From Daucus carota subsp. sativus (taxonomy: Eukaryota; Streptophyta; Magnoliopsida; Apiales; Apiaceae): a DNA stretch of 64,000 nucleotides. The notes beneath the pieces are model-generated. The model worked only from the letters and a program-made list of their open reading frames with translations. It was not told where the DNA came from and did not search any database. Location of the stretch: assembly GCF_001625215.2 (NCBI RefSeq), contig NC_030386.2:37141296-37205295 (forward strand). Reading direction: 5' to 3'. The stretch's first letter is position 1; each line of letters opens with the position of its first letter. A program made the position numbers and the translations under genes. Shown here piece by piece: positions 2,014-38,250 of this stretch.

Positions 2014-2104
2014 GACTTTTGTCACTTTTGTGTACCTGAAATGAGCCTCTATGAATTGGTTTGTCAAGGTTGTATACCCTTCTCGTGAGTGGTATGACCT
2101 CGTA

Positions 2105-2315
2105 GTAACCCTTAAAAGGATTTTTTTCCATTCATGAAATCAGGGCATATTCAATTGTGATTTTTATGATTCATTAAAATCTTGGTGTATTCAATTGAAA
2201 TTTTAAATTATGTTACAAAATCTGATGATATTTAATTATGATTTTAAATTATACTTAAGAATAGGATGGTATTTAATTGGGATTGTTTTAAATCCATTAA
2301 AATCTGATGGTCATT
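2105..2315. repeat. Short AT-rich tandem motif upstream of P450 copy 1
   Basis: Degenerate copies of a roughly 35 bp unit built around ATTCAATTGAGATTTTAAAAT occur in a row. The same stretch is present upstream of P450 copy 2 (6140-6355), so it was part of the duplicated segment. It lies in the promoter region, but no regulatory role can be read from it. Confidence 0.6.
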
Positions 2316-2482
2316 ACGTCATATATGGACTATTGAAACGCTTAATTCAAGCACGTGTTACAATAGCCAAAGAGATTTTGACATAATGAAACAATACTCA
2401 AGTAATATTACAATAATCGAAATGCGGTGTTACAATAGACATGACAGTGTTGCCACCATGTAAAACCACTGTTATAATATAG

Positions 2483-2927
2483 GGGCTGTATGGCTGAGTT
2501 TAAAAGAAATGACTTATTGATTAAAGTAAAGAAGCGGATAAGAAGTGAGAAGTTGATTTGCACTTATAAGTTACCAGAAGTGTTTGGATACCGTGACTTA
2601 TAAGATTTGTATGTGTTTGGATAACATAACTTATAAGTTAGTATAGTTTTGTAATATATAAATTATTTTATTTAAAAATAAATTATAATAATACAAGACC
2701 TTTTATTATTAAATACATGAAATATTTACAGATTCAAAATGTAAAAACAAAAAAGTTGATTTTTGAAACTGGTTCCCGTAATTGAATAATTCTGGATAAT
2801 TATTATTCTGTTATAGAATCGTGTTAGAATATTGTATAATTTTTGGAATTAAAAAAAAATTATCGTTTCCGGTTAGTATTTTTGGTAAACTAATTAATAT
2901 TTTGTAATTATATTTCACAAAAAATAT

Positions 2928-2970
<43 letters not shown>

Positions 2971-3302
2971 GTATACTACGAAACTCAATATATGAAGGTC
3001 GGTAATGGAGTGCTATCTATATCTATATCTATTATATATTATATTATATATAGAAAAAGGAGAAAATTGTGGAAAAAATTATAAATGAATGGGCACATAG
3101 AGACGAGAAAGCTTAAATACATAAACAATAAATAGACACGTACAGGAAACAATGCATTGAAATAAGTTAGAGAACAAAAGAAACCAGTTTTTGTAGCTTT
3201 TTTTTCTGCTCTTTGTGCTTATATTAAGCCCGGCTGAAGCCAAACACTTACAGAATAAGTGAAATGGGCTTCTAAGCCCAGAAGCTAACGAGCCAAACAC
3301 CC
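2483..3302. mobile_element. hAT-like MITE (GGGGCTGTATGGCT ... AGCCAAACACCC) with nested insertion
   Basis: The ends form imperfect inverted repeats (GGGGCTGTATGGCT against the reverse complement GTGGGTGTTTGGCT). The first 150 bp resemble the reverse complement of the right part of 40333-40749, for example AAAAGAARTGACTTATT. No clear 8 bp target duplication was found, so the family assignment is tentative. A second repeat (about 2750-3016) sits inside. Confidence 0.4.
2750..3016 (-). mobile_element. Partial copy of a terminal-inverted-repeat MITE, same family as 18266-18692
   Basis: The reverse complement of this stretch aligns with the left half of the element at 18266-18692. Shared pieces include AGCACTCCAT at the tip, GGAGTT(A/T)CGTAG, and CGATTCTATAACAGAATAAT further in. 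A (TA)n run at about 2937-2963 lies inside. The far end is not recognisable, so the copy is probably truncated. Confidence 0.55.
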
Positions 3303-3339
3303 ACATAGTTCTTGCTTTTATTTGAAATTAATTACTTAA

Positions 3340-3482
3340 TTTGTGGGTCCCACGTGCAGGCTTCACTTGTGGACCCATAATATGGCCCCACTTTAAATAA
3401 TTAATTGATTAATTAATCAATTAATTAGTGGGTCCCACATGTGGGCTCCACCACTAGTGGACCCAATGTATAGCCCCACTAT
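3340..3482. repeat. G-box-containing GTGGGTCCCACGTG repeat, short array
   Basis: Two degenerate copies of a unit with GTGGGTCCCACGTG, a GGGCTCCAC part and a TTAATTAATTAATTA spacer. It contains a CACGTG palindrome at 3351-3356. The larger array of the same unit is at 6455-6890. Confidence 0.6.
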
Positions 3483-3647
3483 AATCAAATAAATAATAAA
3501 AAAAAAAAACTAGTAACTGAGCATAAATTAAGTAAAACGCTGAATTGAAGTACTGATCTTTTATGACATCAGGTTCTCTGGCTTGCAGGTGCTCAGACAA
3601 ATAAAAAAAAACATGTTCAGACTTGCAGAAACTTTTAGTCTGCCTAA

Positions 3648-6045
3648 CTAATTAATCGGTTGAAACACCAGGGGAAGCCCCTTGCAAGGCCTCAAAGACA
3701 ACATGTGAACAGGGGAATGCTGATAATAAGGCGATAGCGAAAATGAAAACCTTGTCAAGATCAAGGTTAACACAATCTTGTACTCCATGATTGCAAGGTT
3801 TCTACCAATGCACATTCTTCCTCCGATACCAAAAGGCACATACCCCATCTTGCTGAGACAGCCTCCATGCACAGAATCAGCCTCAAACCTCTCTGGCCTA
3901 AATTCGTTTACAGTGTCACCCCAAAGACCGCGGTCATGGTTCATTGACAACATATCGATCCAAATATTTGTACCTTTAGGGATGACAACTTCACCTACTC
4001 GAATGTCCTCTCTGACTTGCCTCTGTGCATTTACTGCTGACGGGTATAATCTTAATGCTTCACTCATCACCCATCCCATCTGCAAAGCAAATAGAACATA
4101 ATTATATGCTGAACCGACAAATTTATGATCTCCTAGGCAGAACTAATTAATTTCCAAAAAATTTAATTAACCTTTTTCAGTCCAAAAATATTGGTGGCAT
4201 CGACAACTTGATCTCCAATTACTTGTTTGATCTCTTCCCTAAGTTGATTTGTCCACTCCGGATACATAGCCAAGAGCATCAGGGTCCATATTAACGCTAA
4301 AGCTGTCGTTTCAAAGCCTGCGAAGAAGAAGGTTTTGCACTCATCAACCAGCTCTACAGTGGTCAGAGTCCTTCTACAATCTTTATCAGCCAGCATCAAG
4401 TCCAGCAAATTCTTCTCTTGACGAGCATTAGTTATGCCAACCCGAGCACCCGCTTCCCTTGATTTAATTTTGTTCTTGATGATTGTTAAAAACAGGGCAT
4501 CGATCTCATCACCAAGCCTCTTTGCTTCACAGTATTCCTTATAGCAGAAAAAATTGTTGAATGGGACTCCAACATAACGGTTGGAAGCGAACAGAACTTG
4601 CTGCATGGTCCTCAGTTTATGAAACACCTTTTTGCCGTTGTTGTAATCCATTCCAAAGCTCGTCTTGGCTATAATCTCCCCAGTTGTGGCTATGATCTCT
4701 GATTCGACCTCGATTTCTTGGCTACCCGAGTTGATAATAGAGGTCCATCGGTCCAGCATTTCGTTTGTTGAGGCCACCATTAGGCTTCCCATGGCCTGTA
4801 GAAAGTTGGATCGGATATATGCTAATTATACTACAGGTAGCCACGTAGTTCCGTTTAAAGTCGAAATCTTAAAAATTTAATATCGAAATATTAAAAGTTT
4901 TGACTATTTAGAATAAACTTTAGTTATTTTTTTTTGTCAAGCAACTCAACGAGACATTCAGATGTCTAGTTCTTACTCAGATGCCCACTGCATTATGAAA
5001 ATAGAACTAAACACAGCGAGTCAATGAGCGAATACAAGTTGCAACAATAAGGACAACTATGATATCAAATATATTGTTATTAATTACGCAAAAAGTGTTA
5101 GTGCGAGAACCTAATTTTGCATTATACACAAGGAAAAGATTTATTTTAGAAATTAAATAATACATAAGAGCTGCATATAAAATTCCTTTGCATGCTAATA
5201 TAGTATTACTGTTCACACAAGTACGCCAAACAAACATCTTGTAATATGCTTAAAATGTCACCTTGAGATTTGCCGGAGAGAATGCAGGGGTAATAACATT
5301 CCGGTGTCGAAGCCAATCGTCGCCTTCCAGCATAACTATGCCATTTCCGAACATCGCTTTTCTGTCGATTCTGAAAACATCCGGTTTGCCCCAGCTATTT
5401 CCCAGAACAGCCGAGGCCATTTGTTTCAGAAACTCAGGATCCGCAATACGTAGAAACGGTTCGGTTCCTAGCCAGTAGATAAACACTTTTCCTGCAATAG
5501 CAAAAAATTTTGAGTAGCAGTAGGTGCACAAAATTATGTACATGACGAGGTGACAATTGATATGGTGAATTTTATTTAATTGGGGTTGTTAGATGTAAAT
5601 ACAAGAGGCTCATTTCAATTAAAATCCACCACATGTCATTATGTATAAAATTTTGTACATGATTATATGCACCAAGCATTTTCCAAAATTTATTATGATA
5701 AATATTTAATGCACAAAGTCGTTTTTTGTCTCGAAAAATTATCATGTTCTTACCATGAGATTCTTGCCACTCGGCGAAGTGTGGGACGACTTTGGAATAG
5801 ATGTCATGGCTTACGGTGGTGCAAGAAGATAGTGCAGAAGCTCTCTTGTTCTTCGCAGCTACCATGTGTTTGATGTTTCCAAGAGGAAAGCTTGGAGAAG
5901 GACCAATTAAGCCATTCCTTCTCAGCTTCTTGTACACCATGTTTGGCCATATCCACAAGCTGTAAACAATTTTTAACACTACCAAGACAAATGAAATAGC
6001 CAATGCTAATTCAACAGTTCTGACAAACCAAGTTGGAAGAGCCAT
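3648..6045 (-). CDS. CYP715A: Cytochrome P450, CYP715/CYP714-like, tandem copy 2
   Basis: Four exons on the minus strand (6045-5754, 5491-5262, 4795-4172, 4079-3648) give an intact 525-residue protein, the usual P450 length. Visible parts: membrane anchor at about residues 10-33, hinge GPSPSFPLGN at 48-57, I-helix AGFETT at 333-338, E389-x-x-R392, FRPERF near 443, and the haem loop FGIGGRMCIGR with ligand Cys472. The usual second Phe or Leu of the loop is Ile here, which is tolerated. Compared with copy 1, exon 3 is three codons longer, in the variable loop before the I-helix, and intron 1 carries a small inserted fold-back element. It is an ER monooxygenase of the CYP72 clan. Arabidopsis CYP715A1 acts in flower and pollen maturation, its substrate still unknown to me. 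CYP714 is the other possible family. Confidence 0.92.
5523..5673. mobile_element. Small fold-back MITE inside intron 1 of P450 copy 2
   Basis: Intron 1 is 262 bp here but only 80 bp in copy 1. The extra part has inverted ends (GGTGCACAAAATTATGTACATG against the reverse complement of CATGATTATATGCACC) and more inverted similarity inside. It is absent from copy 1, so it was probably inserted after the duplication. The family is not identified. Confidence 0.6.
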
Positions 6046-6139
6046 CGCTTTTGTCAGTTTTGTGTGCCTGAGATGAGCCTGTATGTGTTGGTTTGTCAAG
6101 GTTGTATACCCTTCTCTTGAGTGGTGACCTCTTGTCCTG

Positions 6140-6355
6140 AGTATTCAATGAGATTTTAAAAGATTTTTATTCATTCATGAAATTAGTGTGCATTCAATTG
6201 AGATTTTTAAAATCAGTTAAAATCTTGGTATATTCAATTATCATTTTAAATTATGTTACAAATCTGATGATATTTAATTAGAATTTTAAATTATACTTAA
6301 AAATTCGATGATATTTAATTGTGATTGTTTAAAATCCAATAAAATTTGATGGTCA
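6140..6355. repeat. Short AT-rich tandem motif upstream of P450 copy 2
   Basis: Same ATTCAATTGAGATTTTAAAAT-type units as at 2105-2315. Similarity between the two upstream regions continues to about 2430 and 6455, which marks the distal edge of the duplicated segment. Confidence 0.6.
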
Positions 6356-6454
6356 TATATATGGGTTATTGAAACGCTTAATCTAAGCATGTATTACAAT
6401 AGCCCTGAAGATTTTGACATAATTAAACACTACTCAAAGTAATATTACAACGGC

Positions 6455-6890
6455 CAAAATTAATTAATTAATTAATGGGTCCCACATGTACCCTCCACTC
6501 ATGGACCCCACTTTAATTGATAAATTAATTAATTAATTAATTAATTAGTGGGTCCCACGTGTGGGCTCCACCCCTAGTGGGCCCCACGTGTGGGCACCAC
6601 TTTACTAAAATAATTAGATTAATTATATAATGTGTTAAGAAATTAGTGGATCCCACGTGTAGGCTCCAGTTGTGGACTCATCATGTGGGCCCCACTTTAA
6701 TTAATGTGGGCACCACTTTATTTAAATAATTAATTAAATTAAATTATTTAATCAATTAAATTAACTAAATAATGAGTGATTTAATTAATTTGTGGGTCCC
6801 ACGTGTAGGCTCTACTTGTGGACGCACCATGTGGGCCCCACTTTAATTAATTAATTGATTAATTAGTGGTTCCACATGTATTCTTAGTAT
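6455..6890. repeat. G-box-rich minisatellite, GTGGGTCCCACGTGTGGGCTCCAC units
   Basis: About four to five degenerate units of roughly 110 bp alternate a GC-rich near-palindrome (GTGGGTCCCACGTG, GTGGGCCCCAC) with (TTAA)n spacers. CACGTG G-boxes are at 6556-6561, 6585-6590, 6654-6659 and 6800-6805. The array lies about 400 bp upstream of P450 copy 2. It may be bound by bZIP or bHLH factors, but that is inference. Confidence 0.7.
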
Positions 6891-6899
6891 GTAATTAAT

Positions 6900-8960
6900 T
6901 AATTACTTGATTAATTAGTGTTGTCCTAATTTTCAAGAAAAAAATTAAACAATCAAATAATATATTTTAACCAACCTTTAATTTATTTTTACTAAAATAT
7001 TAACAAAATTATGTCACAAATTAAATTATAAAAGCATTATATATGATATAAATATTTTATTATACATTAATATTATATAAAATACTAATAATAAATATAT
7101 TTATTTATTAGTTACATTGAGAATAACTGATATTATTACATTTTCAATGAGCTATATATGGTTGTTTTATAAAAATTTTTAAAAAAATCATCCTTCCGTA
7201 TTCATAGGGATTGTAGGTATGTAGTATTAAACCACAACTAGCAAAGAAAAAAATTACGTAAAGAAATATGAAATCGATATAGATTCAATGTTACTGCACT
7301 TCAATTGATAAATATATAATTGATTAGGGAAATCATATTTAAATAAAATAAACATGATGCACTTTGTATTAACAATTAATATAATCCATACTGTATTAAT
7401 GGCTCTATTTTTAAATTATACGAATAAGAGTCTGATAATCTTTTTTAACTTTATGCGTTCTTTATCAGATCTTTTCCCCAAAGAACAGCCTCGGGATAAT
7501 ACCTTTATTGTTATGTATAATCAAATATACAAGTAATATTCGACTTAAGCAGCCAGCCAGCGAATAGGCGATTCTTAAATGACGCGATGTGCTTTAAAAT
7601 TATCATTTCAAAATTCTGTCTGAGCATATCTCTTAAACCCAGGATACGTTTAGATAACCATGGACAATGGACATCATACATTTGGAATACTCACCATGAA
7701 ACGCACCATAAAAGGCACAAAATAAAATGATATTTTGGACCCATCATCTGCGTATGATCAAATAACAAGCAACAAAATGGATCCTAGTCACCGGTACGAT
7801 AAAGGTAATAATAATTATAAACTTTATTTTTCAATCATATGCTTCAAGAAGTCTATCAATTTAAATAATAATTATATCTACCCAGACTAATTGATCATTA
7901 AAATATTTTATATAAATTAAATAATATATTATTTAAAATATGAACTTCAGATTTTATTCATAATATATGTTAAATTCCACATAGCTTTCAAATTATACTT
8001 GTAGATGCTGTATGGTTTTCAATTAATGAATTGATTCTTTTTTATATATAAAAAAAAGAAGTTAACATTGACATTAACTCAATTTAAATGACTAGGTTAT
8101 AACTATTATTGTTCACTTTTAATACATAATTTTTATGTACTATTATGATACTTATTATAATTTAAATATTTTTAAGTTATATAAATTATTAAAATATAAA
8201 ATTATGAGAGAATAATATGATTAAATAAATTTTTTATTTGATGGTTGAATAATTTCTTAATAATTAAGTATGTCAAAGGACTAATTAAAAATTAGCTCGA
8301 ACATGTGTATTTTAAGGAGAATGTTAAAATGTGATTTTTAACATGTTATAATTTAAGAAGACGTATAAACTCATATATAAACCAACCAATCAACCTTTTA
8401 ATATTTCATTATTAATGATTAATAATATAATATAGAAAATATTATAAATTAAAGAGACGTATAAATCCAAACGATCAATATTTTGGTTTAATAGATAATA
8501 AAGGATATATTGTAAAAAGTTATATATCAAGAAGTTCTGTTGGTCGTCGAATACCAATCCGCTGAACAAACTCGACTTACAGAGGACCGATCAACTGTTT
8601 AAACTTTAATAATATAATAATATATAATATAGTATAAATTTATAATATTACTTTCAAAGTAAGACTATTAGAGTATTTAAAAATAATGTTAATATATTTT
8701 AGTTGAAAAATATCACTGATTATTTATTAATAGTTATATATAATGTTATACTTTTAATACATGTCGCTCGTGTTAATTATAATATATTAATTTTAAATTA
8801 ATTAGAAAATCTAAAAAAGATAATGTGTTTTAGTAAAAAAAAAATGATATTTTTGATAACATATTTTATACTTATATATCTATGAGATATATGGATGCAT
8901 ACGAATGATTGGAACTTTTGAGGAGGAAATGAAGTATCTTCGCTCCGTTTACAAGAATAT
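6900..8960. other. AT-rich intergenic DNA, no gene seen
   Basis: Only short chance reading frames are present. No coding similarity, RNA gene or repeat with clear ends was found. Confidence 0.6.
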
Positions 8961-8963
8961 TTA

Positions 8964-9199
8964 CTCCCTCCGTCCCACCAGATTCTTTACGTTACTTTTT
9001 GGCACGCATTTTAATGCTCTTATAAAGTATACTTACATTATATATTTATTTTTGAAAAAAATCCTGAAAAAAAGTTTGACGTTTAAACTTTTATTCAAAA
9101 AAAGAAAAAAATTAAAAATACGTTATAGAACTATACTTTACGAGAGCCTCAAAATACGTGCAAACAGTGTACGTAAGCATCCTGCTGGGACGGAGGGAG
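8964..9199. mobile_element. Stowaway MITE (Tc1/mariner type), 236 bp
   Basis: Terminal inverted repeats CTCCCTCCGTCCCA and TGGGACGGAGGGAG are flanked by TA on both sides (8962-8963 and 9200-9201). It has no coding capacity. Confidence 0.9.
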
Positions 9200-9204
9200 T
9201 ATTA

Positions 9205-11230
9205 TCTAACTGATACGTTATTAGAATAAACATTATGTATATATATCTATTTACTCCAATACAACCGAAAATTAATAAAATTAACACAAGTCAAGTGTGC
9301 GGTAGACTGATCATGAGCAATTGTTTACCACCTTTTGCCTTTGAGAATTAGTCCTTGAAACAGTATACTCGGACATGAAGACTAAAGTATTAACTTCTGA
9401 AGACCTATAAAGTTAAATTATTGTGTGTCTATACTATAATATAGTTAATAAATATTTTAAAAATCCAGTGTTAATTGTTTCCTTTTACACGTGCAGCTAG
9501 GAATACTAGTGTAGAAAGATTCAACGCGAAGCTCGTGGAGTCGTGGTCATGGGATGGGGATGCCAATTAAAAAAAGAAGTTTTCTAAGTTGGAATATGCA
9601 TGCATGGCTTTAAATTATAGCAGGCTTGCAGCGCATATTCATTTACCTTTCTAAATAAGTAAACATGCCATGCATTTTTGCCAAAATTACTTTATAAAAG
9701 ATTCACTATAACTCAACTTATTGAGTTTTTCGAAAGAAAATTATAATCTGTGTCTGCCTGCTTTTTTGCTTCAGGCCTCTAGGACGCATACACCCAGGGG
9801 CCTAGCTAAACTTTTGAACTAGTGGGGGCAAAATATAAGAGAGAGAAAAAGAAAAGAACAGGGGTAAAAAATTTGCTATAAAAACTGCCAGAAGAGATCG
9901 AACTTCTGCCTCTGGGTTAACATAAAACACTCAATCATGAGGGTAAATAAATAATTTATTGAAAATGATACTAAAAATATATATTTACTGGGAAGATCAG
10001 TGAGGACAAGTACCCCCACTGCACCCCTCTAAATACGTCCCTCATGCACCGAGCAGTGAGCACCCACCGACTCTACTTGCTATATAACTTGGTCTCTCAA
10101 GCGTGATGAGATCGTAGCGGTTTGTGTTTTCAGCATTGTGTTTTCAAGCACCTGAAAATTAAGGTTGTGTTCCATGGAATGAGGTGAATAGATGAAATAA
10201 AAAATTATACAGAAATTTTATGCATAAGAAATTAATAAATTATCTGTAATATTTAAATTTTATAATGAAATTTATAAGAAACAATATGAAGAAGTGAAAT
10301 GAACATTTCTTTCAAAATATTTAGGTTAGAATTTTAATTTAAATATTCAAATAATTTGAAATGGAAAAAATGAACTAATAAAAAATCGACCAAAATTTGA
10401 CTGAAATTTATTAATATTTTGTGAATTGATAATATAAAAAAAATATATCACTGGAAATAACTTTTAATCTACTTTAAGGTGTAATTTTTCGTTTTTCAAA
10501 ATAATGAAAAAGTGACTTATAATCTTTGGTTAAAAACTAGTCAATTTGACCGATAAAAATAGAAATGTGACAACTAAAAAAGGACGGAGGAGGGAGTATA
10601 AAACTAAAATTTAACTTTCTAATTTAAGAGATTTAATGAATTAATTTTTTTAGTTGTGAGGCTTGCACTTGATATCATTTAATTTAATAACAACATTAAA
10701 TATTATAGTTTTACTTATCCGACAAACTAGCAAGATTAATTTTAATGATGAGGTATATTTTTAAAATAAAATTTATTTTTATTTTAAATGTATATATAAT
10801 TTTAATTTATAATTAATGTGAGATTTACTCAGGTCATTATAGATTTAGCAATATGATGGGATGCAGGCAAGAATGTTTTTTCTCCTCAATGTAATCAAAT
10901 TTTTATGTGTTGTCTAATATTTGTAATGTGCCATATATGTTGAGCATGTTGACTTTTTCTTAATAAAAATAGGATGTCGTTTTAGGAAGAGAATTCCACA
11001 CTAACATAACAATTTCTAGAATTAAATATTTTAATAAATTTTTAAGCATAAATTTATATATCTTTTCATAAATAAATTTATTTCAAACTTACGATAACAC
11101 AAATAGATATATGTAATTCCTTCCAATTATAATATTACACATATATTACAAATTAATAAAAATATATTTGTAGTTCACAGCATAACTCAGACTTACATAT
11201 ACAATCAATCTAACATATATCTATCTTCGC
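9205..11230. other. Intergenic DNA downstream of P450 copy 3; one Stowaway-like end at about 10586-10600
   Basis: No gene seen. GGACGGAGGAGGGAGTA near 10586-10600 resembles a degenerate Stowaway right end, but no partner end was found. Confidence 0.5.
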
Positions 11231-11232
11231 AG

Positions 11233-14025
11233 CTACTTCTCGAGAGGTTTAACTATTAATTGCATCCCTTGAGTTGGCCTGAGGGAGAGCATAATAGCAG
11301 GCGAATGACAATACGAAGGTGACAAAGAGAAAGAAAACCTAGTTAAAATTAGGGCTAAAACAATCTTGTACTCCATGGTGGCCAAGTTTCTACCAACACA
11401 CATTCTTCCTCCGAAACCAAAAGGCACATAACCCATCTTCTGGTTGCACCCTCCATGCATGTCGGCCTCGAACCTCTCCGGCCTGAAGTCATGGACCGTG
11501 TCGCCCCAGAGGCCGGGGTCATGGTTCATGGCCACCACGTCGATCCACATATTTGTGCCTTTCGGGATCGTCACCTCGTCCACTCGAATATCATCTTTTG
11601 CCTGTCTTTGGACGTTCGGTGCTGATGGATATAACCTCAGAACTTCACTCATCACCCATCCCATCTGCAAATTGAAACAACAATTAAAGATTATAACATG
11701 ATCATATTCACCGAACAGTCCTACAAAATCTATCATTAAAAATAATACAGAATACCAGTAGTTATTCTACTATGATGTATTAGTATTTAAAATATGGATT
11801 TATTATTTTCCGGCCAAAATAATCAGCCATATATAAATGCGAGTGAGGATAATATATTCTAGAGCTTTCTTTTGATGTCGGTTATAGAAAAAGAGTTTGA
11901 GCTGTCATTAGTTACTCCGAAATGGACAACTACAGACTGTACAGTCGTTTTCCGAAATTGGGTGCTAGCATCACCATCGGACAGCCCCATTATCTAGGTG
12001 GAATGTCAACGTTTGTGTGTTAGTGTTTGTTATTCCTGAAAAGAATCTGGGTAACACGTGGATGCTTTCAACCCTGACCACACAATGTACACGCGCATTG
12101 AACGCATATTCCACTCACATATTTGCATGCATCTCCCACTCACACCCATGCAAAAAAAAAAAACACAACTCAATTCTGCACTCCCCCTCCTCACTTCTAA
12201 TATGCATGATCAAAGTTCTTAATTAATTACATTTTTATCCAATTTAAATATTATAAGATTAAATATTCTCTCAATTTCTTACTCTTTTCAATTATAAAAT
12301 AATTGAAAAGAGTAAAAAATGCAGGTGAATATTTAATTCATAAATTTAATTAAAAAGGTGTATGAAAGTATGGTGGATGAGATTATTCTTATATCGTGAA
12401 AGTTACTATTTTTAGAAATTTTGGACAACAAAAAAATGAAAGCTTAAAGACTTGATTTTCATGGATGTAGTAGTTAAATTGTTCAATTAGTACACATGTA
12501 CTAATTTCAAGTAAGCGGATATATGTGATTGTGTGCAAGTAAGGCCTAATTTGTAAGATGCAATTGTGCAGCTCAAAAAGTTGTTAAAACCATTAGTTTC
12601 ATTGAACCAAAGAATGCATGTGTTTGGGAAGATGTAGTGATTGTACTATAGCAAGTTTACCTTCTTTAGTCCGGCAAGCTTGGTGGCATCCACAACTTCG
12701 TCTCCGACAACCTGTCTGATCTCTTCTCTGAGTTGGTTTTGCCACTCCGGATGCATGGCCAAGAGAAGCAATGTCCATGACAGTGTCAATGCTGTCGTTT
12801 CGTGGCCTCCGAAAAAGAAGGTTTTGCACTCATCCACCAGCTCCCTTGTTGTTAAAGAATTCACTAGCCGACCATCCACGCAATTATCAGCCAGCATTAG
12901 GCCCAGCAAATTCTTCTGAGCGCCACTCTCGGTGTCTTTTGATTTGATTCTGTCGTTGATGATTGAGAGAAGAAGGACATCGATTTCGTTTCCGAGCCTT
13001 TTGGCTTCGAGGTATTGTTTAGGGTACATGAACTTGCTGAATGGGACTCCAACGTAACGATTGGAGTTGAATAGAGTTTGTTGCATGGCCCTTAATTTTT
13101 CCAATACCTTTTTGCCGTTTTCGTAGCTCATGCCGAAGCTCGTCTTGGCTATGATTTCGCCGGCAGTGCTGATGATCTCTCGCTCGACGTCGATTTCTTG
13201 ATGGCCGGAGTGTATCAGGGACGTCCATCTGTCTAGCATTTCATTTGTCGTCTCAATCATTAGGCTTCCCATGGCCTAAATGCAAATTTCACATTATAAT
13301 TAATTATTTGGGTCGTCCCAAAATATAACCAAAAAAAAAAATAAAAAATCGTGTATTATGGATTGAGCAATGTACCTTGAGGTTGGCCGGAGAGAATGCC
13401 GGAGTTATAACATGTCGATGACGAACCCAGTCATCACCTTCCACCATGACTAAGCCGTTTCCAAACATGGGTTTTCGGTCATTTCTAAAAACACTCGGTT
13501 TTCCCCAACTCTTGCCCAAAACACCTAAAGACATCTTCTTCAGAAACGCGGGATCGGCAATGTAGAGAAATGGTTCTGTCCCTAACCAATAGGTAAATAC
13601 TTTGCCTGAAAAACAAAACAAAAAAATAATAATTAAAAATCACAATTAGACCACCACATAACGTAAATTTCCAATCCATGCAAGCACAATGTGTATAATA
13701 CTGATAGCCTAATGAAATAGTACTTACCATGAGACTCTTGCCACTGAGCAAAATAAGGAAAAACTTTCGAATGGATGTCATGGGAGATGATGCCCAACAA
13801 AGACGAAGAGGAATCGCTCTGAATCCTCTTCGTCTTTGATTTCACCATATCATCAATGTTTCCCAGAGGAAAACTCGGAGACGGGCCACTTAACCCACTC
13901 CTCGTGAGCTTCTGGTAAGCCATATTTGGCAATATCCAGAGCCTGTAAACGATCTTAATCACTCCCAAAAACACTAGAATAGCTAAGGCTAATCCCACAT
14001 CTTTAAAAAACCAAAGCAACTCCAT
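11233..14025 (-). CDS. CYP715A: Cytochrome P450, CYP715/CYP714-like, tandem copy 3
   Basis: Exons 14025-13728, 13605-13376, 13275-12661 and 11664-11233 encode an intact 524-residue P450 beginning MELLWFF. It has a membrane anchor, the hinge GPSPSFPLGN, the I-helix GGHETT, an ExxR in EVLR, FRPERF and the haem loop FGFGGRMCVGR with Cys470. It is clearly more distant from copies 1 and 2 than they are from each other (GGHETT against AGFETT, different anchor), so it is the older branch and perhaps the ancestral-type gene. All intron positions are shared with the other copies. Intron 3 is about 1 kb and contains a perfect 16 bp hairpin (12279-12315). It is predicted to be an ER-bound monooxygenase of unknown substrate; CYP715 is preferred over CYP714 from gene order. 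Confidence 0.92.
12279..12315. repeat. Perfect 16 bp hairpin in intron 3 of P450 copy 3
   Basis: TTACTCTTTTCAATTA at 12279-12294 is followed by a 5 bp loop and its exact reverse complement at 12300-12315. It is probably a relic of a fold-back element. Confidence 0.7.
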
Positions 14026-24898: not shown

Positions 24899-25772
24899 AT
24901 GGCTTCTTTTAATTTTGCCTTCAAGATTTTTGCTGTTTCTGCTCTTGCATTTGCTTTCTGCTTCCAGGGAACCTTAGGTACCAAAAAATTATAATTACTG
25001 ATTAGAGCTAATTACGCTATAGGTTTTATTTTATGATGATTAATTAGCCTTTTTTTTTTTTGTTGTTGTAGGAAGCATAGCGTGTGAGGATCTGAACAAG
25101 GAGTCATGTGCCTACGCGATATCATCGAGTGGGAAGCGGTGTGTGCTGGAGCAGCGTGTACGTAGAAGTGGGGAGGAAGCATTCACTTGCGGTACGTCGG
25201 AGATTGAGGCTGACAAGCTCAAGGACTGGATTGAAAGCGATGAATGTATCCGTGCCTGCGGTTTGGAGAGGAACGTTCTTGGAATCTCATCGGACTCTCT
25301 TCTTGAGCCTCACTTCGCCAGGAAGCTTTGCTCTACTCAATGCTACAACAACTGCCCCAACATCATCGACCTTTACTTCAATCTTGCTGCCGGTGAAGGT
25401 ACATTTATACGTAAAAAATTATGTACTTAAATTTACACAATTCTATACTTCGAGAATATTTTTTTTTCTACTGATTTTTAACTAAAAGTCGTGTTTCAAA
25501 AAAAGACTACTAAATAATTATGACTAAATATTTTTTTACGGACAGGACTATTTCTTCCAAAATTCTGTGCATCTCGAGGAAGGAGGACACGACGTGGAAT
25601 GAGCGAGCTAATCAGAAGCTCAGGAGGTGTTGCAGCAGGGCCAGTGAGTGCTGGTAAGTTGATGGTGGCGGAGGGGCCCGAAGCGGAGGAGTTTATGGAT
25701 GAGGAGGCAGAAGCACCGGCCGCAGACAACATGTTGATGGAGGAAGAAGCAGAAGCTCCAGCATTCTTCTGA
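24899..25772 (+). CDS. PAR1: PAR1-family secreted cysteine-rich protein, copy A
   Basis: Three exons (24899-24977, 25072-25398, 25546-25772) encode 210 residues. Residues 1-26 form a hydrophobic signal peptide ending near QGTLG. The mature part has ten cysteines in the PAR1 (photoassimilate-responsive protein) pattern, including KRCVLEQRVRR, DECIRACGLER and QCYNNCPNIIDLYFNLAAGEG. A basic stretch (RGRRTRRGMSELIRSSG) follows, then an acidic Glu/Ala/Pro tail in which EAEAPA occurs twice. PAR1 proteins are plant-specific and secreted; tobacco PAR1 is induced by sugar build-up and by virus infection, and its molecular function is unknown. Intron phases are identical in the three copies. Copy A and copy B are nearly identical, including parts of the 3' UTR and the promoter. 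Confidence 0.92.
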
Positions 25773-27984: not shown

Positions 27985-29146
27985 ATGGCGGCTTCTTTTA
28001 ATTGTGCCTTGAGGATTTTCGCAGTTTCTGCACTTGCATTTGCTTTCTGCATTCAAGGAACCTTCGGTACAAAATTTATTAATTACTTATACGAGCTATT
28101 TTTTAATTTTTTTTGACAAAAACAACTTATAACCTTACAAATGAGTATCTGTTCTAATAAGTTCTATATCGGGGTGAGCTAGCCCCAGGATGACCGATGA
28201 TAAGCTCTTAACCACTTGAGCTATCCAACCGTGCTCACTTATACGAGCTAATTAATTATGCTATACGAGCTAATTAATTATGCTATATGTGTTATTTTGT
28301 GATGATTAACTATTTTTTCTTTTTTGTTGTTGTAGGGAGCATAGCGTGTGAGGATCTGAGCAAAGAGTCATGTGCATACGCGATATCTTCGAGCGGGAAG
28401 CGGTGTGTGCTGGAGCAGCGTGTGCGTAGAAGTGGGGAGGAAGCTTTTACTTGCGGTACGTCGGAGATTGAGGCTGATAAGCTCAAGGATTGGATTGAAA
28501 GCGACGAATGTATCCGTGCATGCGGTTTGGAAAGAAGCGTTCTTGGAATCTCGTCGGACTCTCTCCTCGAGCCACACTTCGCCAGGAAGCTCTGCTCTGC
28601 TCAGTGCTACAACAATTGCCCTAACATCATCGACCTTTACTTCAATCTTGCTGCTGGTGAAGGTACAATTTTACTTTTATATATACTTATATGTACACGA
28701 TACTTGCTGGTAGTGACGGGATTAGGATTCTGAAAAACAGAGACTAAAAAAAGTTAACGCTAATATATTTTTACTACTGATTTTTAACTAAGAGTTGAGC
28801 CTTCAGAAAAAAATAAATGAATACCGAATCTTCAACTCAATACTACTGAACTAACAAATTAGGAAAAGAGCATTCTATCTAATACTGATACAATAACTAT
28901 AATTAAACTTTAATATGTACAGGATTATTTCTACCAAAATTCTGTGCATCTCGAGGAAGGAGAACACGACGTGGAATGAGCGAGCTGATCAGAAGCTCCG
29001 GAAGTGTTGCAGCAGGGCCGGTGAGTGCTGGTAAGTTCATGGTGGCGGATGGACCCGAAGCTGTGGAGTTTATGGATGAGGAGGCAGAAGCACCGGCTGC
29101 AGACAACATGTGGATGGAGGAAGAAGCGGAGGCTCCAGCATTTTGA
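27985..29146 (+). CDS. PAR1: PAR1-family secreted cysteine-rich protein, copy B
   Basis: Exons 27985-28066, 28336-28662 and 28923-29146 encode 210 residues beginning MAASFNCALRIF. The signal peptide, the ten-cysteine core and the acidic EAEAPA tail match copy A with few changes (for example GLERSVLGISS in place of GLERNVLGISS), so this is a recent duplicate. Intron 1 is longer than in copy A because a SINE was inserted into it (28099-28236). The protein is predicted to be secreted, with molecular function unknown as for the family. A CACTA transposon begins 295 bp after the stop and may lie close to the natural polyadenylation region. Confidence 0.92.
28099..28236 (-). mobile_element. tRNA-derived SINE in intron 1 of PAR1 copy B
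   Basis: On the minus strand the element starts GAGCACGGTTGGATAGCTCA and contains a good RNA polymerase III box A (TAGCTCAAGTGGTTAAGAGC). It ends in an A-rich tail (CAAAAAAAATTAAAAAA). A perfect 14 bp target duplication ACTTATACGAGCTA flanks it at 28085-28098 and 28237-28250. Box B is degenerate. Copy A lacks it. Confidence 0.85.
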
Positions 29147-30244
29147 TACATCAAGGGATGAAAATACTGAAGGTGTTGTAATAAGGAATATTTTGGGATT
29201 CCAGTTTGGCCCGACTTGTTTTGGTTGTGTGCTGTAGTAAAATCTGTGTTTCTGAGTTGGTTTCACATATGTATTTCAGCTTAATTGAACATAATCCAGT
29301 GAATCAATATGAAATATATGTGTTGGCTTAGCTACTCATATCGTTACATTTTTTTTCCGATGATTGTCCTTTTCTCTTTTTCAGCATTAGATGATAATGG
29401 AATCGGTGAGAAACAGCCATCCACCAAATTAATCACCAGACACTACAAGAAAAATGGTCAAAAGCCACCAACTAAAAGCTACCAGGTTCAAAAGCAACCG
29501 TATGTGGTTGCTTTTAAAGACAATTTAGATTATAAGAGATTGAAGCATAAAAGCAACCGAAAGTGGTTGCTTTTACATTCGGTTGCTTTTGTTTAGTTGC
29601 TTTTATAGGCGGTAGCTTTTAAGTGGTCGCTTTTAAATATAAAAGCAACCGGCGGTCGCTTTTAAGTTCCGTAAAAGTAAGCGGGAAAATTCCCGCGGAA
29701 AGGACTAAAAATTGTAGATATAAAAGCAACCGATTTCGGTTGCATTTATAAAAGTAACCGATTCCAGTTGAATTTATAAAAGCTACCGATTATTTTTATA
29801 TACCTACTTTATTCTTATATAACATTTTTCTTATATAGCTACTTTATTCTTATATAATATTTTTCTTATTTGTTTGTATTTTTATTGACAAAATTATATA
29901 TATAATTTGTTTCTATATAATTCAGGTAAACGATGATATAGAGCTTAAAACCAAATTCAAAGATTTAATTTTCTACAAAATAATATTGGACAACATAGCA
30001 ACTACCCTTTTTAACCAAAACACATTATCCTTTTAGATTCATACCTAAAAAACCAATTTTCCAAAAATAACACATGCAACATACATACTAAAAAGAATAT
30101 TGTTATATATAATTATTAATATATAACCGATGATATGTTTGAACTAAATACATTAATTTTTTTTTTAGTTACTTCATGTTATCAATTTAAAAGTAATATC
30201 ATGAATCTCTACTATCAGTTTATACTATACTATATACTATACTA

Positions 30245-30292
<48 letters not shown>

Positions 30293-30874
30293 AAATGAAA
30301 TATTGATAATTTTATTGGCTAGTCGAGTTTTATCAGCTGGTCGGTATTATTTTACGGGCGGGGCCTCCTTAATATATAACATGTTCAAATAAACTTTTTT
30401 ATTATCAATTAAGTCAAAACATTTAAAAATTCTGCCATTATGATCGCTTTGTATTTCAATTAAATTTAAAAAATAGAGAATAAAATCACAAATTTTATAA
30501 ATCATCCATGCATGGCACGGGCTATAAACTAGTACAAAGTATATGTCTAACTATATAATATTTCAATTGTGGGAACTTCTTACAAATAAAGTCTTGGAAA
30601 TTACTGCGGACGGACGGATACAAGAAGTTCTTGACCTTTACTATGACGATGGTCATCATGTATTTTTTTTAATTTTTTAACCGGGTAGTTTATGATCCAT
30701 CGAATGAGCCGGATATGATCTCACTAACATTAAATATCATTATTATTTCAATTATTCAAATAACTACCATTTAGTCTAAGTAAATATAATATTATAATAT
30801 ATAATAATTATTTTTAGTTAGTTTTTTTCTCTCATATATAGTTATATACTGATTGATAATAAAATTATCTAATA

Positions 30875-31108
30875 CTCTCTCCGTCCCAAAATACATGTCA
30901 CTTTGACTTTTTTCACATAATTTGAGATGCAAAAATAATATACTTCTACATATTATTTTTCAAAATTTCCTTTTCTGAATAAAAATATAGATGTTAAATT
31001 TTTATTCAGAAAAAGAAATTTGAAAATTAATATGTAGAAGTATAATATTTTTGCATCTCAAATTATGTGAAAAAAATCAAAATGACATGTATTTTGGGAC
31101 GGAGGGAG
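30875..31108. mobile_element. Stowaway MITE nested in the CACTA element; long hairpin
   Basis: Ends CTCTCTCCGTCCCAAAATAC and the inverted GTATTTTGGGACGGAGGGAG, flanked by TA. Nearly the whole 234 bp folds back on itself with few mismatches, so a transcript would form a long double-stranded stem. Confidence 0.92.
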
Positions 31109-31998
31109 TAATAATAATATTTTAATAACACACTTGAAATAATGAAGTTCAAATAAAAGTTACCTGTTTGATAATTTTTGACATAATAATCTTTCACAAG
31201 TTTTAATGGTAAAACACATAATGTTAATACTTTGCCAAAAAAAAAAAAAGACCAAAACATATATAAATTTACATTTAATTTTTTTAAAAATAATTTTTAA
31301 ATAAAACAATAAACAATTGAGAAGTCAAACTCGGATTATTTTTTTATTACTACTTATGTAATAATAAAAAAAATAATTATTTTTTCGGGTTCCCACGCAT
31401 ATCAGCCCAGGTTTTTCACTTTCCCTCTTTCCCACTTTACTTAAATTTGTAGAGTCTTCATATTACTTCTACAGTAGCTATTTACTTTTCCTCTTAACAT
31501 GTATATTCGATTGGCTGACACTGACACATCATGGTCCAGCACACTCCAAATTATCTTTCAGCTTAGACGGCTTAATTGATAAGCTATCTTTAATTCGATA
31601 TATACTACTTTCATCGCTGCCTCTGTTTATTTGTCGGGAAGGACAAACAAATTCACATTAGTACAATGCAGAAATTCTCAAATTTACACTCCAAATTTTC
31701 TTTACAGGTGTCCTTTTTGTTGGAACACTTCTGCCTCCTTTTACATTTGGAATTAGAAGCTTTTTGTGAATTTATGTGATAATCTTGCTACATCAGAACC
31801 TGATATTTTCAAATGAGAGATAAATTGTGTTAGATAGGAAAATACAATTCAAATGAACATAATCACATGCTTAGAATGATATACTTTACACTGCATTTGT
31901 TGTAGTTGTAAAATAGTTTACCCTCGCATTTAGGCATTCGTTGTCGTTTTATACACTGCAAATGTGATCCTTACATCACATTATTGTATTTTATGCAG

Positions 31999-32364
31999 GC
32001 TAGTAATAGCAGCGGTGGAAGGGGATGGAGACAGGGAGGTAAGATGTGATTTGTGTGTTCTGTACACTGATATCTTAGTGTTTTATGTTGGAATTATAGG
32101 TATGTAATTTAACATACAATTTTTCTCTATATATGCTTCAAATATATTTTAATATAAACCCTAGCTAGGTGCCGCCCCCCTTCATGATTTTATAGGTGAC
32201 GGGTTTACATACATGAACATCTGCTAATCTGGTTTATGTGTTAGAAGAAGACTCGGAAAACAATTTCTTGACTACTTTTATTTGTGTAGGAAAATGTTCC
32301 TGAAGTTCCGGTGGAGAATGATTTCTTGTTAAATGGGGAGCTCGACGGGGAGGATGTACATTGA
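31999..32364 (+). pseudogene. Two exon-like pieces inside the CACTA element (captured gene or transposon gene tail)
   Basis: A piece at 31999-32038 has good splice borders (GCAG before, GTAAG after) and reads LVIAAVEGDGDRE in the frame that ends in phase 0. After an AG at 32289, the piece 32290-32364 continues in the same phase as ENVPEVPVENDFLLN and runs to a stop after GEDVH. Together they make a plausible acidic C-terminus. No upstream exon was found. It could be the tail of a transposon protein or a captured host fragment; I do not recognise it. Confidence 0.35.
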
Positions 32365-33210
32365 TTCATTATCCTCTGTGTCCATAGTCAGTTAAAGTAT
32401 GTATTAGTTAGACTTTGTCGGATGGTTATTTATTAGCTTTAGTTTTATGTAATCTTTTGGTATGTACTGTTTGATTGAGATCAAACAGGAGATGATGTAT
32501 AGGGTTGTTGGACAGGTTGTGTAAAATGTTATATCTATTTTTATGCAGCTTTGATATATTTATTGTTTTAATTTTATTAATACCCCTCCCTCTGATATGA
32601 TGATGTATATTCATATCCCTCCCCCTAATATAATGTTGTTGGGCACCTTTTGATTGGGGTAGTCAAAAAACTAGCATGATTTTTTTTTATGAAATTACCA
32701 TATAAAAGCAACCGGAAATAATTATGGTGGCTTATTAAATGCCACTGATTTTGGTAGAATTTCTTTGATTTCGGCGGGAAATTCAAATTTTCGCCAAAAA
32801 AATGAAGTAATTTGGACAAATCCAAAATTCAATAAAAGCGACCAACAAGGCGGTTGCTTTTATATAAAAGCAACCGGAAATGAGAAAAGCAACCCCCTTA
32901 TTTGCTACCGACAGTGTTCGGTTGCTTTTAGTCAAAAGCAACCCAGTTCGGTTGCTTTTATCTAAAAGCAACCATATTTTGACGGTAGCTTTTAGCCATT
33001 TTTCTTGTAGTGAGACCATTGATAAATAGTTTATTTGCAATCACACATATAACCATTAACATAAGGTGATCAAGGTTCAAACCAATTCGAGTCAGAAACT
33101 TGTTTCGGCAATTAGAATAGTGCCAATCACTTATTACACTCAAAAAGGCTCAACTATCAAACTTCTACAAGATATAAAATAGATAACTCAAGCGAAACTC
33201 AGAATGACTC

Positions 33211-34027
33211 CTAACCCGAGCCCTTGGAATCCAGAACTGACTTGGGCCTCAACTGCAAAAACAAACAAAAAAACATAAGCGCCAAGGTATTTCCTTGTAT
33301 TCGTTCACTAGTATTACAAATGGGATGAAAATATAAATCCAACCTGGTTGCTGTGTCCACACTTCTTCTTCCTGCAGTTCTTGGCTCGAATGTCCAAACG
33401 TGCATAGCATCTATTCAATCAATTAAACTACATAATCAACATCATTAAAGATAATAACACATCATTAAGCATGCACTGTATTGTACTTTTAAAAAAAAAC
33501 TCAGCCTTACTTTCTACAAATCATCTTCTTCTGGTTGTACTTTTGAGCCAACACAATCAAGTTCGGATCGATCCTTCCATGCCCTCCCTTTCCTCCTCTC
33601 AGCCTCACAAGAACATCCACCGTCGACTCTGCACAACCATTAAAATCGTCACTCATTGCAACTACTTCTATACATTAATTAAAAACACACACACTATTAA
33701 CATTACCGTTCTGGATCTCATAATCAGCAACGACATGATAATCTTCAAGCTCTTTACCAGCAAACACCAGCCTCATTTCCTCCGCGTCAGCACCAGCTTC
33801 TCAAACAAAACACAGTAAACATTATAAAAAAAAACACGTACCCAACATGCAACGAGTCAAGACGTTAAATATCATCAAATTAAACGCTGCAAACTCGTAC
33901 AGTCAGCTCAGAACTCACCACCACTCTCTTGAACAATCAGTCTCTTCACGAACTCAACCGAGTCGCTGGACTTAACATCGAGGGCAATAGTCTTGCTGTC
34001 CAACGATTTCACAAATATTATCTGCAT
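33211..34027 (-). CDS. Diverged ubiquitin-60S ribosomal protein eL40 fusion
   Basis: Five minus-strand exons (34027-33919, 33799 or 33796-33707, 33628-33511, 33410-33344, 33252-33211) give about 141-142 residues without a stop. The N-terminal part is a ubiquitin fold: [37 protein letters not shown] and the cleavage site RLRGG. An eL40-like part follows ([46 protein letters not shown]) with all four zinc-binding cysteines. Normal plant ubiquitin is essentially invariant, but this copy is only about half identical to it. K48 is kept, while K63 is Asn, H68 is Asp and I44 is Val. Six extra residues follow RLRGG and the C-terminus SVLDSKGSG is non-standard. The first intron junction is ambiguous by a codon or two. 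It could be a neofunctionalised gene or a slowly decaying paralogue; the open exons and splice sites favour the first. Confidence 0.75.
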
Positions 34028-34099
34028 CTTACTCGTCTTTGTTTTCTATCTGAGTGATCAGAGTGTTGAAAATAAAAGTCCTAATATTCATAGAATAGA

Positions 34100-36510
34100 C
34101 AAGCTTGTTTTCTTTGGAACTTAAGAAAAACAGTAAGTATTATTTCGTTGGCTTGAACTTCAAAAAAACCATAGAGATTTAAATACACCTGATATAACTA
34201 CTCCCTACAAATCAGCAACAACATGCACCTAGAATTACTCCAACACACTCCTAACTGCACCATGACTCACCTAAACAACCTGAAACAAACTAAACACTTG
34301 GTTTACTGCATAGACGTGGCTAACAGGTGCTAATATTAAAAACTAAACAAATAATTAAAATTATAAGTTTAAGATTATTCCAACACAGAGATGGTGGTGC
34401 ATTTACGGAGGTATTTAATTATATATGTATTTGCGTAGAGGTTACTTCATACGTGGAGAGGAGATAAATGTATTTTGCAAGGAAATAATTCGCTTGCGCT
34501 ACACACAAATTGTCTAGGTTTGAGTATCAAGTAAAAACCGAATACTCAGCAACTTTTTAGTGTTTTCTATCTGCGGGTGTTAATATATTTATCAGCATCA
34601 ATATTGAATTGGATATCAGCAAATTACTGTGCACGTACACAGAGTCCATTGACAAGGGGCTGGCGTTTACCAAATTTATAAATTTCACAAAATTCTTGCC
34701 TGACATATTTTTAAAAATTCCAACACAATACATAAATTTATTAAAAATTATGATTTCAAAAATATAGGGCAATAAAATAGTGCAGTTATAAAAATATGCA
34801 TTCCCTTAAATTAAAAAGCTAGTACGGCGAACACAATGGAGTAGACGAGTGTTAAGGCATTGTCTTTGTGGTTTCATGCATGTTATGAGTTTTTTATTAC
34901 GCATTCTGAAATTTATTAAAATAATTATAATTCTCTAAAAGGTATCATGAATAAGAAAGGGTGACGGTTTGTTATCAACCATAACCTCTATTTTGTTTTA
35001 ATATGTCTGTATTTCTAATAAAACAAGAATAATTTAAAAGACTAGGTTATTATTAAAGAGTTAAGTTCTATGGAGTACAAAAAAAATTGAAGTATTGAAG
35101 TACAAAGTTTGATAAAATGTAATCTAGTCATCTAAATTTCAATTTTTTTTGTCCAATAATATTTGTAAATATTTGACAACCTGCACATTATGTTCTGCAA
35201 CATAAATATCGTGATCAAATGGTAGAATAATTACTTTTATAAATCACAGGACTCTATGTTCTGCAATATAACTAATAAGCAGAACAATAATCTTAATATT
35301 TGTTAAAGTTGAAAGATATTAATGATTAATTGACAATTATGTGCAAGACAACTTATAAATGATAGATTATATCAAAATTTGGATAATCAAAGATATTATA
35401 TAGGATCAAACTAAAAAATTATGATTTGTACTTCAATACTCCAATGTTTTTATGTACTCCATAGAATTTAACTCTATTATTAAAATGTACTTGGTCTTTT
35501 AATTTGCGATTGTTTTGGTGGTATAAAGAGCGGTAATCATTTAATTTGGTTCTTTCTTGAGTACATAATGGCTGAATTTAAAATTATTATTTACAAATTT
35601 ATAATATGACTTAATTTGGTAATTTAAATTATCTGTTTAAATAATTTTGATTTATTAATGACTTATGAATTACTGAAAATATGATAGTAAAAAAAGTGAT
35701 TTATTAGTAAATTGTAATCTATAGATAATTTTTATAAATAAATAAAAAAGGAAAAAATATTAACTTGAACTAACTTTAATTTGAAAAACTTAAAATCCTT
35801 GATTTGAAATCACTTTCCAATTTATTTTTAATTTTGACTTCATTTCTGAGTTATTGGATAAACGCATATTTGCAAATTTGAAATTAAAAAAAAAAAAAAA
35901 ACTTGAGATCCGTTCCTGACTTTAGTTTTGACCGACTCTAGCACCACTGTGGGAATACACTCTGTTCGGTGATGTGATCACGTTGACACTTGTCTCGAGT
36001 TGACAAACAAAAATTACTGTTCTGACACGTGAAATACAGTTAAAACTGATACTGTAATCTTTGATTGAATACAGTTTGATTTGATTAAACTCGACCGTTA
36101 TAGAAATGATCATTTCAACTACTGCACAGCTACAAATATTGCCCTAACATTTTCAATTTGGAGTATATTCTTCATGACTTCCATCTTGTGCCGTGAATTA
36201 TTCTAATTTTTATACACATTACAGTTTTCTCGTGTAAATTAGCACATAATCATGAATAACGGATTTTATAATGGGTGTTCGTTAATAATTATCTTTTAGA
36301 TAGTTAACACATTTTTATTTATCACATTCTCATTATTAGTGATGATTTTTTTTATACACAAAAGCTTTCACCCATCTTTCATATGTCTAAATAAAAAGAG
36401 TTCAAAAACAGGAATCGTGCTATAAGTATTAAGTGCCCGGCCATATTTTGCTTGTTTAGTTGTTTGTAACAGAAAAAATGTTTTCTAAATGTATACTGAA
36501 AATGAAAATA
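34100..36510. other. Intergenic DNA, no gene seen
   Basis: AT-rich. The piece at about 35560-35850 weakly resembles the hAT-like MITE family (ATGGCTGAATTTAAAA), but its ends are unclear. Confidence 0.5.
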
Positions 36511-37341: not shown

Positions 37342-38250
37342 ATGGCTTCTTATAACTATGTATTTAAAAGTTTAGCGGTTTTAGCGGTTTGGGCACTTGC
37401 ACTTATCTTCTGCACTCAAGGCACCTTGGGTACATTTGCGGTCGTATTAGTATCCGATTCGGTTAAATTATCATCCCTGCGCTTTGAAATTTTAGGATAA
37501 CGGAAATTAATATTCGTTGAAATGCAAATTATATGCAGAGAATTGAAATAACAACTTAATTATATGTATTAAGTTGTATATGACAAGTTGAGAATTGAAT
37601 TTTTTTTCTTGGCATTTTACAGGAAGCATTGCATGTGAGAACTTAGACAAGGAGTCATGCGCCTATGCAATATCTTCAAGTGGGAAGCGGTGTGTGCTGG
37701 AGCAACGCGTGCGTAGAAGTGGCGAGGGAGCTTACACTTGCGGCGCGTCGGAGATTGAGGCTGATAAACTCAAGGACTGGATTGAAAGCGACGAATGTAT
37801 CCGTGCATGTGGTCTGGAGAGGAACGTTCTTGGAATCTCGTCTGATTCTCTCCTCGAGCCACACTTCGCCACAAAGCTTTGCTCTACTCAATGTTACAAT
37901 AACTGCCCTAACATTATCGATCTTTACTTCAATCTTGCTGCCGGTGAAGGTACTATTTTACATCTTAAATTACATGCAAAAAGTCAAAACGTATATGCTA
38001 ATGGGGCACTATTTTTACAGGAATGTATCTTCCGAAACTTTGTGAGTCTCAAGGAAAGAATGCGCGACGTAGCATGGCCGAGATCAGAAGCTCCGGACTT
38101 GTTGCGGGCGGACCGGTGAGTGCGGGTAAGCTAATGGTGGCAGAGGGACCTAATGCTGTGGGTGAGCTGATGGAGCAAGCAGATGCACCAGAAGCTAGCA
38201 CCAGCCTCGTAGTCCTGGATTGTGGAACACCTTCGCCTGCAGCATTTTGA
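37342..38250 (+). CDS. PAR1: PAR1-family secreted cysteine-rich protein, copy C
   Basis: Exons 37342-37429, 37623-37949 and 38021-38250 encode 214 residues. A long hydrophobic signal peptide (MASYNYVFKSLAVLAVWALA...) ends near QGTLG. The ten-cysteine PAR1 core is kept (KRCVLEQRVRR, CIRACGLER, CYNNCPNIIDLYFN). The third exon has diverged from copies A and B: the acidic EAEAPA tail is replaced by MEQADAPEAS, then a Cys-containing end (VVLDCGTPSPAAF). It is the oldest branch of the three and may have a different role. Exon 2 has the same 327 bp length as in the other copies, so the central domain is under constraint. Molecular function is unknown for the family. Confidence 0.92.

Follow-up and report, generated by a model that had tools for sequence, protein, structure and literature searches.

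A diverged ubiquitin-eL40 fusion gene in carrot and its relatives within the genome

The ubiquitin-eL40 fusion at positions 33211-34027 raises the question of whether a copy so far removed from ubiquitin is a maintained gene or one in decay and, if it is maintained, what its product might do. The first-pass annotation of this DNA had offered three readings: a new ubiquitin-like modifier, an inert ribosomal variant or a gene in slow decay. The locus lies within a stretch of 64,000 nucleotides of the carrot genome (C6:37141296-37205295), which is referred to as the window; positions given without a contig are those of the window.

Gene structure and encoded protein

The gene (hereafter the window gene) is on the minus strand (34027-33211, or C6:37174506-37175322), with its ATG at 34027 and its stop codon ending at 33211. 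It comprises five exons, which together span 429 nt and encode 142 aa:

33919-34027, minus strand: exon 1, beginning with the ATG at 34027; ubiquitin residues 1-36 and the first base of the following codon
33707-33799, minus strand: exon 2, the middle of ubiquitin; its acceptor is a tandem NAGNAG site
33511-33628, minus strand: exon 3, the end of ubiquitin, RLRGG, the insert KGGHG and the start of eL40
33344-33410, minus strand: exon 4, the zinc-finger part of eL40
33211-33252, minus strand: exon 5, 13 protein letters and the stop

The coding sequence contains no internal stops. All four introns are GT-AG, with phases of 1, 1, 2 and 0 at the entry of exons 2-5, and their places are those of the two canonical ubiquitin-eL40 genes of this genome (four matching introns). 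The intact five-exon fusion initially proposed was therefore recovered over its exact span, and the reported absence of frame-breaking changes was likewise confirmed. The splice sites had been called good, which is true of the GT-AG borders but less so of two sites: the intron-1 acceptor reads GAG followed directly by AAG, such that the product may have either 141 or 142 aa, and the donor of intron 4 is a weak one (GTTGGA). A Pfam ubiquitin domain (3.9e-17, 62.2 bits, cut-off 25.4) is followed in a single frame by Ribosomal_L40e (1.6e-27, 95.6 bits, cut-off 23), the arrangement that identifies a ubiquitin-eL40 fusion, and since both scores are above cut-off a chance match was excluded. A processed (retro) copy was also excluded, given the four introns and the fact that the intron edges and 5′ flank can be aligned with a relative on C3 (C3b, see below). 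No Rfam matches were found within the window.

The ubiquitin half is indeed about half identical to the genome's own ubiquitin (41/76, 54%) and, at 80 aa, is four residues longer than the 76-residue protein. It does start with MQI, as first described, but reads MQIIFVK and so carries one additional Ile; three further residues are found near positions 36-40. Strain on the fold might result from the Ile, which falls in the first strand, and from these three additions. Retained are K6, K11, K27, K48, R42, R72, L73, R74, G75 and G76, as are the RLRGG junction motif, from which cleavage is predicted, and the four zinc cysteines of eL40 (4/4); alignment thus upheld the list of conserved features in the first-pass annotation. 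The same is true of two substitutions that it had named, K63N and H68D, the first of which accompanies the altered lysines K29L and K33E and the second the recognition patch changes I44V and V70L. L71V was also found. At what we take to be the 15 core positions of ubiquitin the residue is still hydrophobic (Val, Ile, Leu or Met) in 15/15 cases, compared with identity at 30/61 of the other positions. Near-identity, the seven lysines and an intact L8-I44-H68-V70 patch are all lacking, and the protein does not qualify as ubiquitin proper. Neither does it qualify as RUB/NEDD8, in which the residue at position 72 is not Arg, as R72 is kept.

The eL40 half is identical to canonical eL40 at 38/52 positions. 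It is preceded by an insert after Gly-Gly that amounts to five residues net (KGGHGRIDP vs IIEP), rather than the six originally counted, and it ends in SVLDSKGSG in place of the basic KKIK. This tail had been considered new; it differs from the canonical one, but is common to two paralogues.

Diverged relatives and selection

The genome (441,086,747 bases, 11 contigs) was searched with the spliced window protein. This recovered a cluster on C3, two canonical ubiquitin-eL40 genes and some broken copies, alongside polyubiquitin and further ubiquitin genes. The ubiquitin-eL40 loci are as follows:

C1:40200554-40202054: canonical ubiquitin-eL40 (C1 gene)
C2:46112103-46113425: canonical ubiquitin-eL40 (C2 gene)
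C3:59607679-59608584: diverged ubiquitin-eL40 without intron 1 (C3a)
C3:59614104-59615780: diverged ubiquitin-eL40 with five exons (C3b)
C3:59618827-59619250: cluster piece, exon-4/5-like after an unrelated start, ubiquitin part not seen (C3c)

The proteins from the C1 and C2 genes are identical. The window protein shares 54/79 ubiquitin and 54/62 eL40 residues with C3b, and 33/76 and 44/60 respectively with C3a, both of which also have the new tail and a comparable insert behind Gly-Gly. The three diverged genes agree with one another against the canonical ones in twelve alignment columns, including the K-G that follows Gly-Gly, so that the residue after the junction is Lys in all three, and S-V-L-D-S in the tail. 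A further comparison of the window gene with C3b gives 26 positions (15 in ubiquitin, 11 in eL40) where these two agree against the canonical sequence. Since C3b carries K48R and C3a carries K6Q, K27M and R74V, along with L71A, the diverged family keeps the signature of the ubiquitin fold without a constant set of chain lysines. In C3a only intron 1 has been lost, and the junction reads RLVGG. C3c, the fourth member of the cluster, consists of eL40 exons 4-5 behind a first exon of unplaced origin.

Stops have already arisen in three processed copies derived from the C2 gene, which are 85-90% identical to it across 146-251 aligned columns, and these copies are a useful contrast to the intact window gene. 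Separately, what seems to be a polyubiquitin array in decay is found at C4:48831590-48855926, a cluster of ubiquitin-like pieces of which several have stops.

The window gene and C3b are separated by 49 synonymous and 40 nonsynonymous steps (dS 0.84, dN 0.13, dN/dS 0.16), with dN/dS at 0.21 in the ubiquitin half and 0.09 in the eL40 half. The synonymous share of these differences (49/89) compares with an expectation of 23% (P 6e-11). Moreover, in the 35 codons of exons 4-5, which include the new tail, 11/11 differences are synonymous (P 1e-7). A purpose-written codon model was then applied to five genes, with equal neutral length assumed for the window gene and C3b, a reasonable assumption for two copies within one genome. 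Under this shared clock the window gene had an omega of 0.135, with C3b at 0.112, C3a at 0.094 and the C1 and C2 genes at about 0; fixing the window branch at an omega of 1 led to rejection of neutrality (2dlnL 44.8 for the whole gene, 16.4 for ubiquitin, 32.3 for eL40). When branch lengths were left free, neutrality was not rejected for the window gene (2dlnL 0.33, 0.96 and 1.06 respectively) or for C3b (0.04, 0.01 and 0.03), because such a fit may place the synonymous changes on the sister branch. Omega reached its upper bound of 20 in 2/3 of the free-length fits, with synonymous sites near saturation, and per-branch omega without the shared clock was set aside as unstable.

By relative-rate counts, amino-acid changes are not over-represented on the window-gene branch, with 5 changes vs 6 in C3b when the C1 gene is the outgroup and 7 vs 4 when the outgroup is C3a. 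As total dN is 0.13, any neutral distance on this branch would be at most about 0.13, or approximately a third of the branch if the clock is even. In neutral simulations at 0.42 substitutions per site, 85/4000 runs remained free of stops; with indels added at an assumed 10%, none did (0/4000).

Long-term decay since the birth of the gene is unlikely, because C3b bears the same changes and dN/dS is 0.16. The suggestion of slow decay as a pseudogene is therefore not sustained over the long term, given a relative in the same genome that shares these changes, and the word 'inert', as applied to a ribosomal variant, finds no support over that span. A pseudogene would show a broken frame or a dN/dS near 1, and the window gene shows neither; neutrality is rejected under the shared clock and is not rejected in the free-length branch model. 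That the window gene and its relatives constitute a long-term conserved gene family is close to established. The finding is of note because few known proteins change as little as ubiquitin, yet here a small, old family of altered fusions has been kept intact by selection.

Upstream region and candidate roles

Comparison with C3b divides the flanks of the window gene into shared sequence and an insertion:

34393-34556, minus strand: 5′ flank common with C3b (C3:59613881-59614053, 69.9% over 176 columns)
34386-34390, no strand: target-site duplication CTCTG, copy 1
34064-34385, minus strand: solo LTR of 322 bp, TG...CA, oriented like the gene and inserted between the ATG and the old 5′ flank
34059-34063, no strand: target-site duplication CTCTG, copy 2
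33159-33210, minus strand: 3′ flank still alignable with C3b, part of the aligned block 33439-33159

A distance of 36 bp separates the solo LTR from the ATG of the gene, and the LTR adds five upstream ATGs (34311, 34263, 34224, 34172 and 34091). Copies were found at C1:47884133 (95%) and C8:18625033 (80%). A MITE was considered for this insert and dropped in favour of an LTR, on the grounds of the TG...CA ends, the 5-bp duplication and TGGTATCAGAGC following the C1 copy, which we take to be a primer-binding site. The LTR is young, differing from its nearest copy at 12 of 318 aligned bases, and the selection signal therefore mostly predates its insertion. The TATATA of the window gene, which falls within the shared 5′ flank, lies at -398 from the ATG, or about -71 when the lengths of the LTR (322 bp) and of a single duplication copy are subtracted; that of C3b lies at -77. 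A telo-box (AAACCCTA) and site II (TGGGCC/T), presumably the promoter motifs of ribosomal-protein genes, occur within 400 bp upstream of the C1 gene, the C2 gene and C3a. Neither was found in the 400 bp upstream of C3b or the 700 bp upstream of the window gene, a loss which suggests that expression of the latter may be restricted. The LTR may disturb translation through its upstream ATGs or, since its orientation matches that of the gene, may serve as a new promoter. On the 3′ side, a CACTA-type transposon (29441-33012), with inverted CACTACAAGAAA ends and a 3-bp AGA duplication, ends 199 bp beyond the stop codon.

We regard the chances as evenly balanced that this is a real, long-conserved gene for a specialised eL40 paralogue whose leader is cleavable and derived from ubiquitin. 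A canonical ubiquitin-eL40 gene would have been duplicated to give rise to the three diverged genes, the chromosome-3 lineage later being copied to chromosome 6. Once transcribed and spliced, the product would fold as ubiquitin plus eL40, and a deubiquitinase would be expected, from the retained motif, to cut after RLRGG. The eL40 variant thus released, with a Lys start, five extra N-terminal residues and SVLDSKGSG instead of KKIK, would then enter the ribosome. The ubiquitin-derived half would act mainly in cis as a leader for folding and maturation, and not as full ubiquitin, because K29, K33 and K63 are gone and the recognition patch is altered. This model draws on yeast, in which the ubiquitin half of the eL40 precursor is reported to aid eL40 production and to be partly replaceable by SUMO, and in which uncleaved precursor is reported to perturb the GTPase centre (PMC6721733, PMC8122580). 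The same reports describe a proposed cis-acting role in folding and maturation for ubiquitin in both the eL40 and eS31 precursors (PMC8122580, PMC6721733).

A once-useful gene that the solo LTR has recently silenced, with decay just beginning, is a rather unlikely alternative. It arises from the presence of the LTR upstream and from the free-length branch test, in which neutrality could not be rejected. The intact CTCTG duplications, the few mismatches to the nearest copy, the five upstream ATGs so close to the start codon and the nearby CACTA element are all consistent with such an event. However, the frame and splice sites remain intact, the relative-rate counts are even-handed between the window gene and C3b, and an LTR in this direction could itself act as a promoter.

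We also think it unlikely, and slightly more so, that the gene encodes a new ubiquitin-like modifier, whose processed half would be activated by E1 and placed on targets of its own, with eL40 as the carrier. Its core is intact, RLRGG, R42, R72, K6, K11, K27 and K48 are kept, and the ubiquitin half is under constraint (dN/dS 0.21, 2dlnL 16.4 under the shared clock); a precedent exists in human UBBP4, a variant ubiquitin that is reported to be conjugated (PMC7066184). Nevertheless, this is the less constrained of the two halves, and canonical ubiquitin shows only 2 nonsynonymous vs 39 synonymous steps between the C1 and C2 genes. Moreover, key residues are not constant across the family (K48R in C3b, R74V and L71A in C3a). 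Sequence by itself does not decide between a modifier and a ribosomal variant, but the constraint leans towards the ribosomal reading because it is stronger in the eL40 half (0.09 vs 0.21).

A regulatory or decoy eL40, either incorporated into few ribosomes or competing with the assembly of normal eL40, for example in one tissue, is improbable. An inserted N-terminus and a tail without KKIK, common to three genes whose eL40 half is strongly constrained, would fit such a role, as would the loss of ribosomal-protein promoter motifs in the window gene and C3b and their presence in C3a. Lys is a destabilising N-terminal residue and, on this reading, would make unassembled copies of the variant short-lived. 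Against the decoy reading, canonical eL40 likewise starts with a bulky residue (Ile).

The window gene can be set beside several known systems. With the canonical plant ubiquitin-eL40 genes it shares domain order, the RLRGG junction, the four zinc cysteines and intron places; it is distinguished from them by its ubiquitin half (54% identical, four residues longer), the five net residues after Gly-Gly, the tail and the 700 bp upstream without telo-box or site II. No report of diverged ubiquitin-eL40 genes from carrot or another land plant was found in the titles and abstract starts of the open-access literature, and we know of none that describes a diverged, conserved family of this kind in a land plant.

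In animals, FUBI-eS30 (FAU) similarly places a ubiquitin-like domain with Gly-Gly, in this case reported as 36% identical to ubiquitin, N-terminal to a ribosomal protein (PMC8354635). As described there, its partner is the small-subunit protein eS30, FUBI has one lysine, and it is the standard source of eS30, whereas the carrot genome retains two ordinary ubiquitin-eL40 genes. A tentative broader reading, less likely than not, is that a land-plant lineage evolved its own ubiquitin-like protein from an extra ubiquitin-eL40 gene that was freed from conservation and then held. It would parallel FUBI-eS30 in plants, with a variant eL40 dedicated to it and a promoter that has left the ribosomal-protein programme, and its new sequence would have been held for about as long as the time since the last genome duplication.

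Ub-L40 has also escaped conservation in Plasmodium (Vivax and Ovale lineages) and in Giardia, where polyubiquitin has not (PMC10457151). According to that report, 14.5-30.3% of residues are changed in Plasmodium and L40 is unchanged. In the window gene, 35/76 positions differ, eL40 has changed too and the diverged genes are extra copies. Dalhuisen et al. describe divergent Ub-S27a as common in protists and divergent Ub-L40 as previously known only from Giardia, add the two Plasmodium lineages and ask whether such divergence is more widespread (PMC10457151). A multicellular plant with three diverged copies and two intact genes would provide a strong positive answer. Because the normal supply of ubiquitin is untouched, knockouts of the diverged genes can be studied in isolation, which makes this a tractable system. 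Several Ub+RPL40 genes are recorded in land plants by a Pinus massoniana paper, with divergence not discussed in the available part of its text (PMC13074694). A large Pfam survey is described as having dropped ubiquitin domains of <80% identity and would therefore have missed genes such as this one (PMC8122580). Human UBBP4 is again similar, as a pseudogene-looking ubiquitin gene with reported conjugated variants, but its UbKEKS is given as having four substitutions, stems from a polyubiquitin-type copy and has no ribosomal partner (PMC7066184).

Origin and neighbourhood

Lastly, neighbours of the gene within the window are duplicated at C3:6.64-6.85 Mb (PAR1 91%, AMP-binding enzyme 87%, a third gene 87%). 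No ubiquitin gene from this block was among the genome matches listed, and a search for a relic in 14 kb of it returned a single 27-bp match (E 0.005) that was not convincing; a whole-genome-duplication partner at this site was accordingly dropped. Because no ubiquitin partner was found in the block, the window gene would most likely be a dispersed DNA copy from the lineage at C3:59.6 Mb. Homology between it and C3b spans flank, exons and parts of introns. Their dS falls inside the range of the partner genes (0.64-1.21), and by this measure the split is about as old as the genome duplication.

Three tandem PAR1 genes (25071-25400, 28335-28664 and 37622-37951), 93-100% alike at the protein level, flank the ubiquitin-eL40 gene on both sides, the middle copy matching Pfam PF06521. 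Further away, the minus strand of window positions 1-14025 carries a cluster of cytochrome P450 pieces, in which 1-2413 and 3796-6450 form a tandem duplication of roughly 90%.
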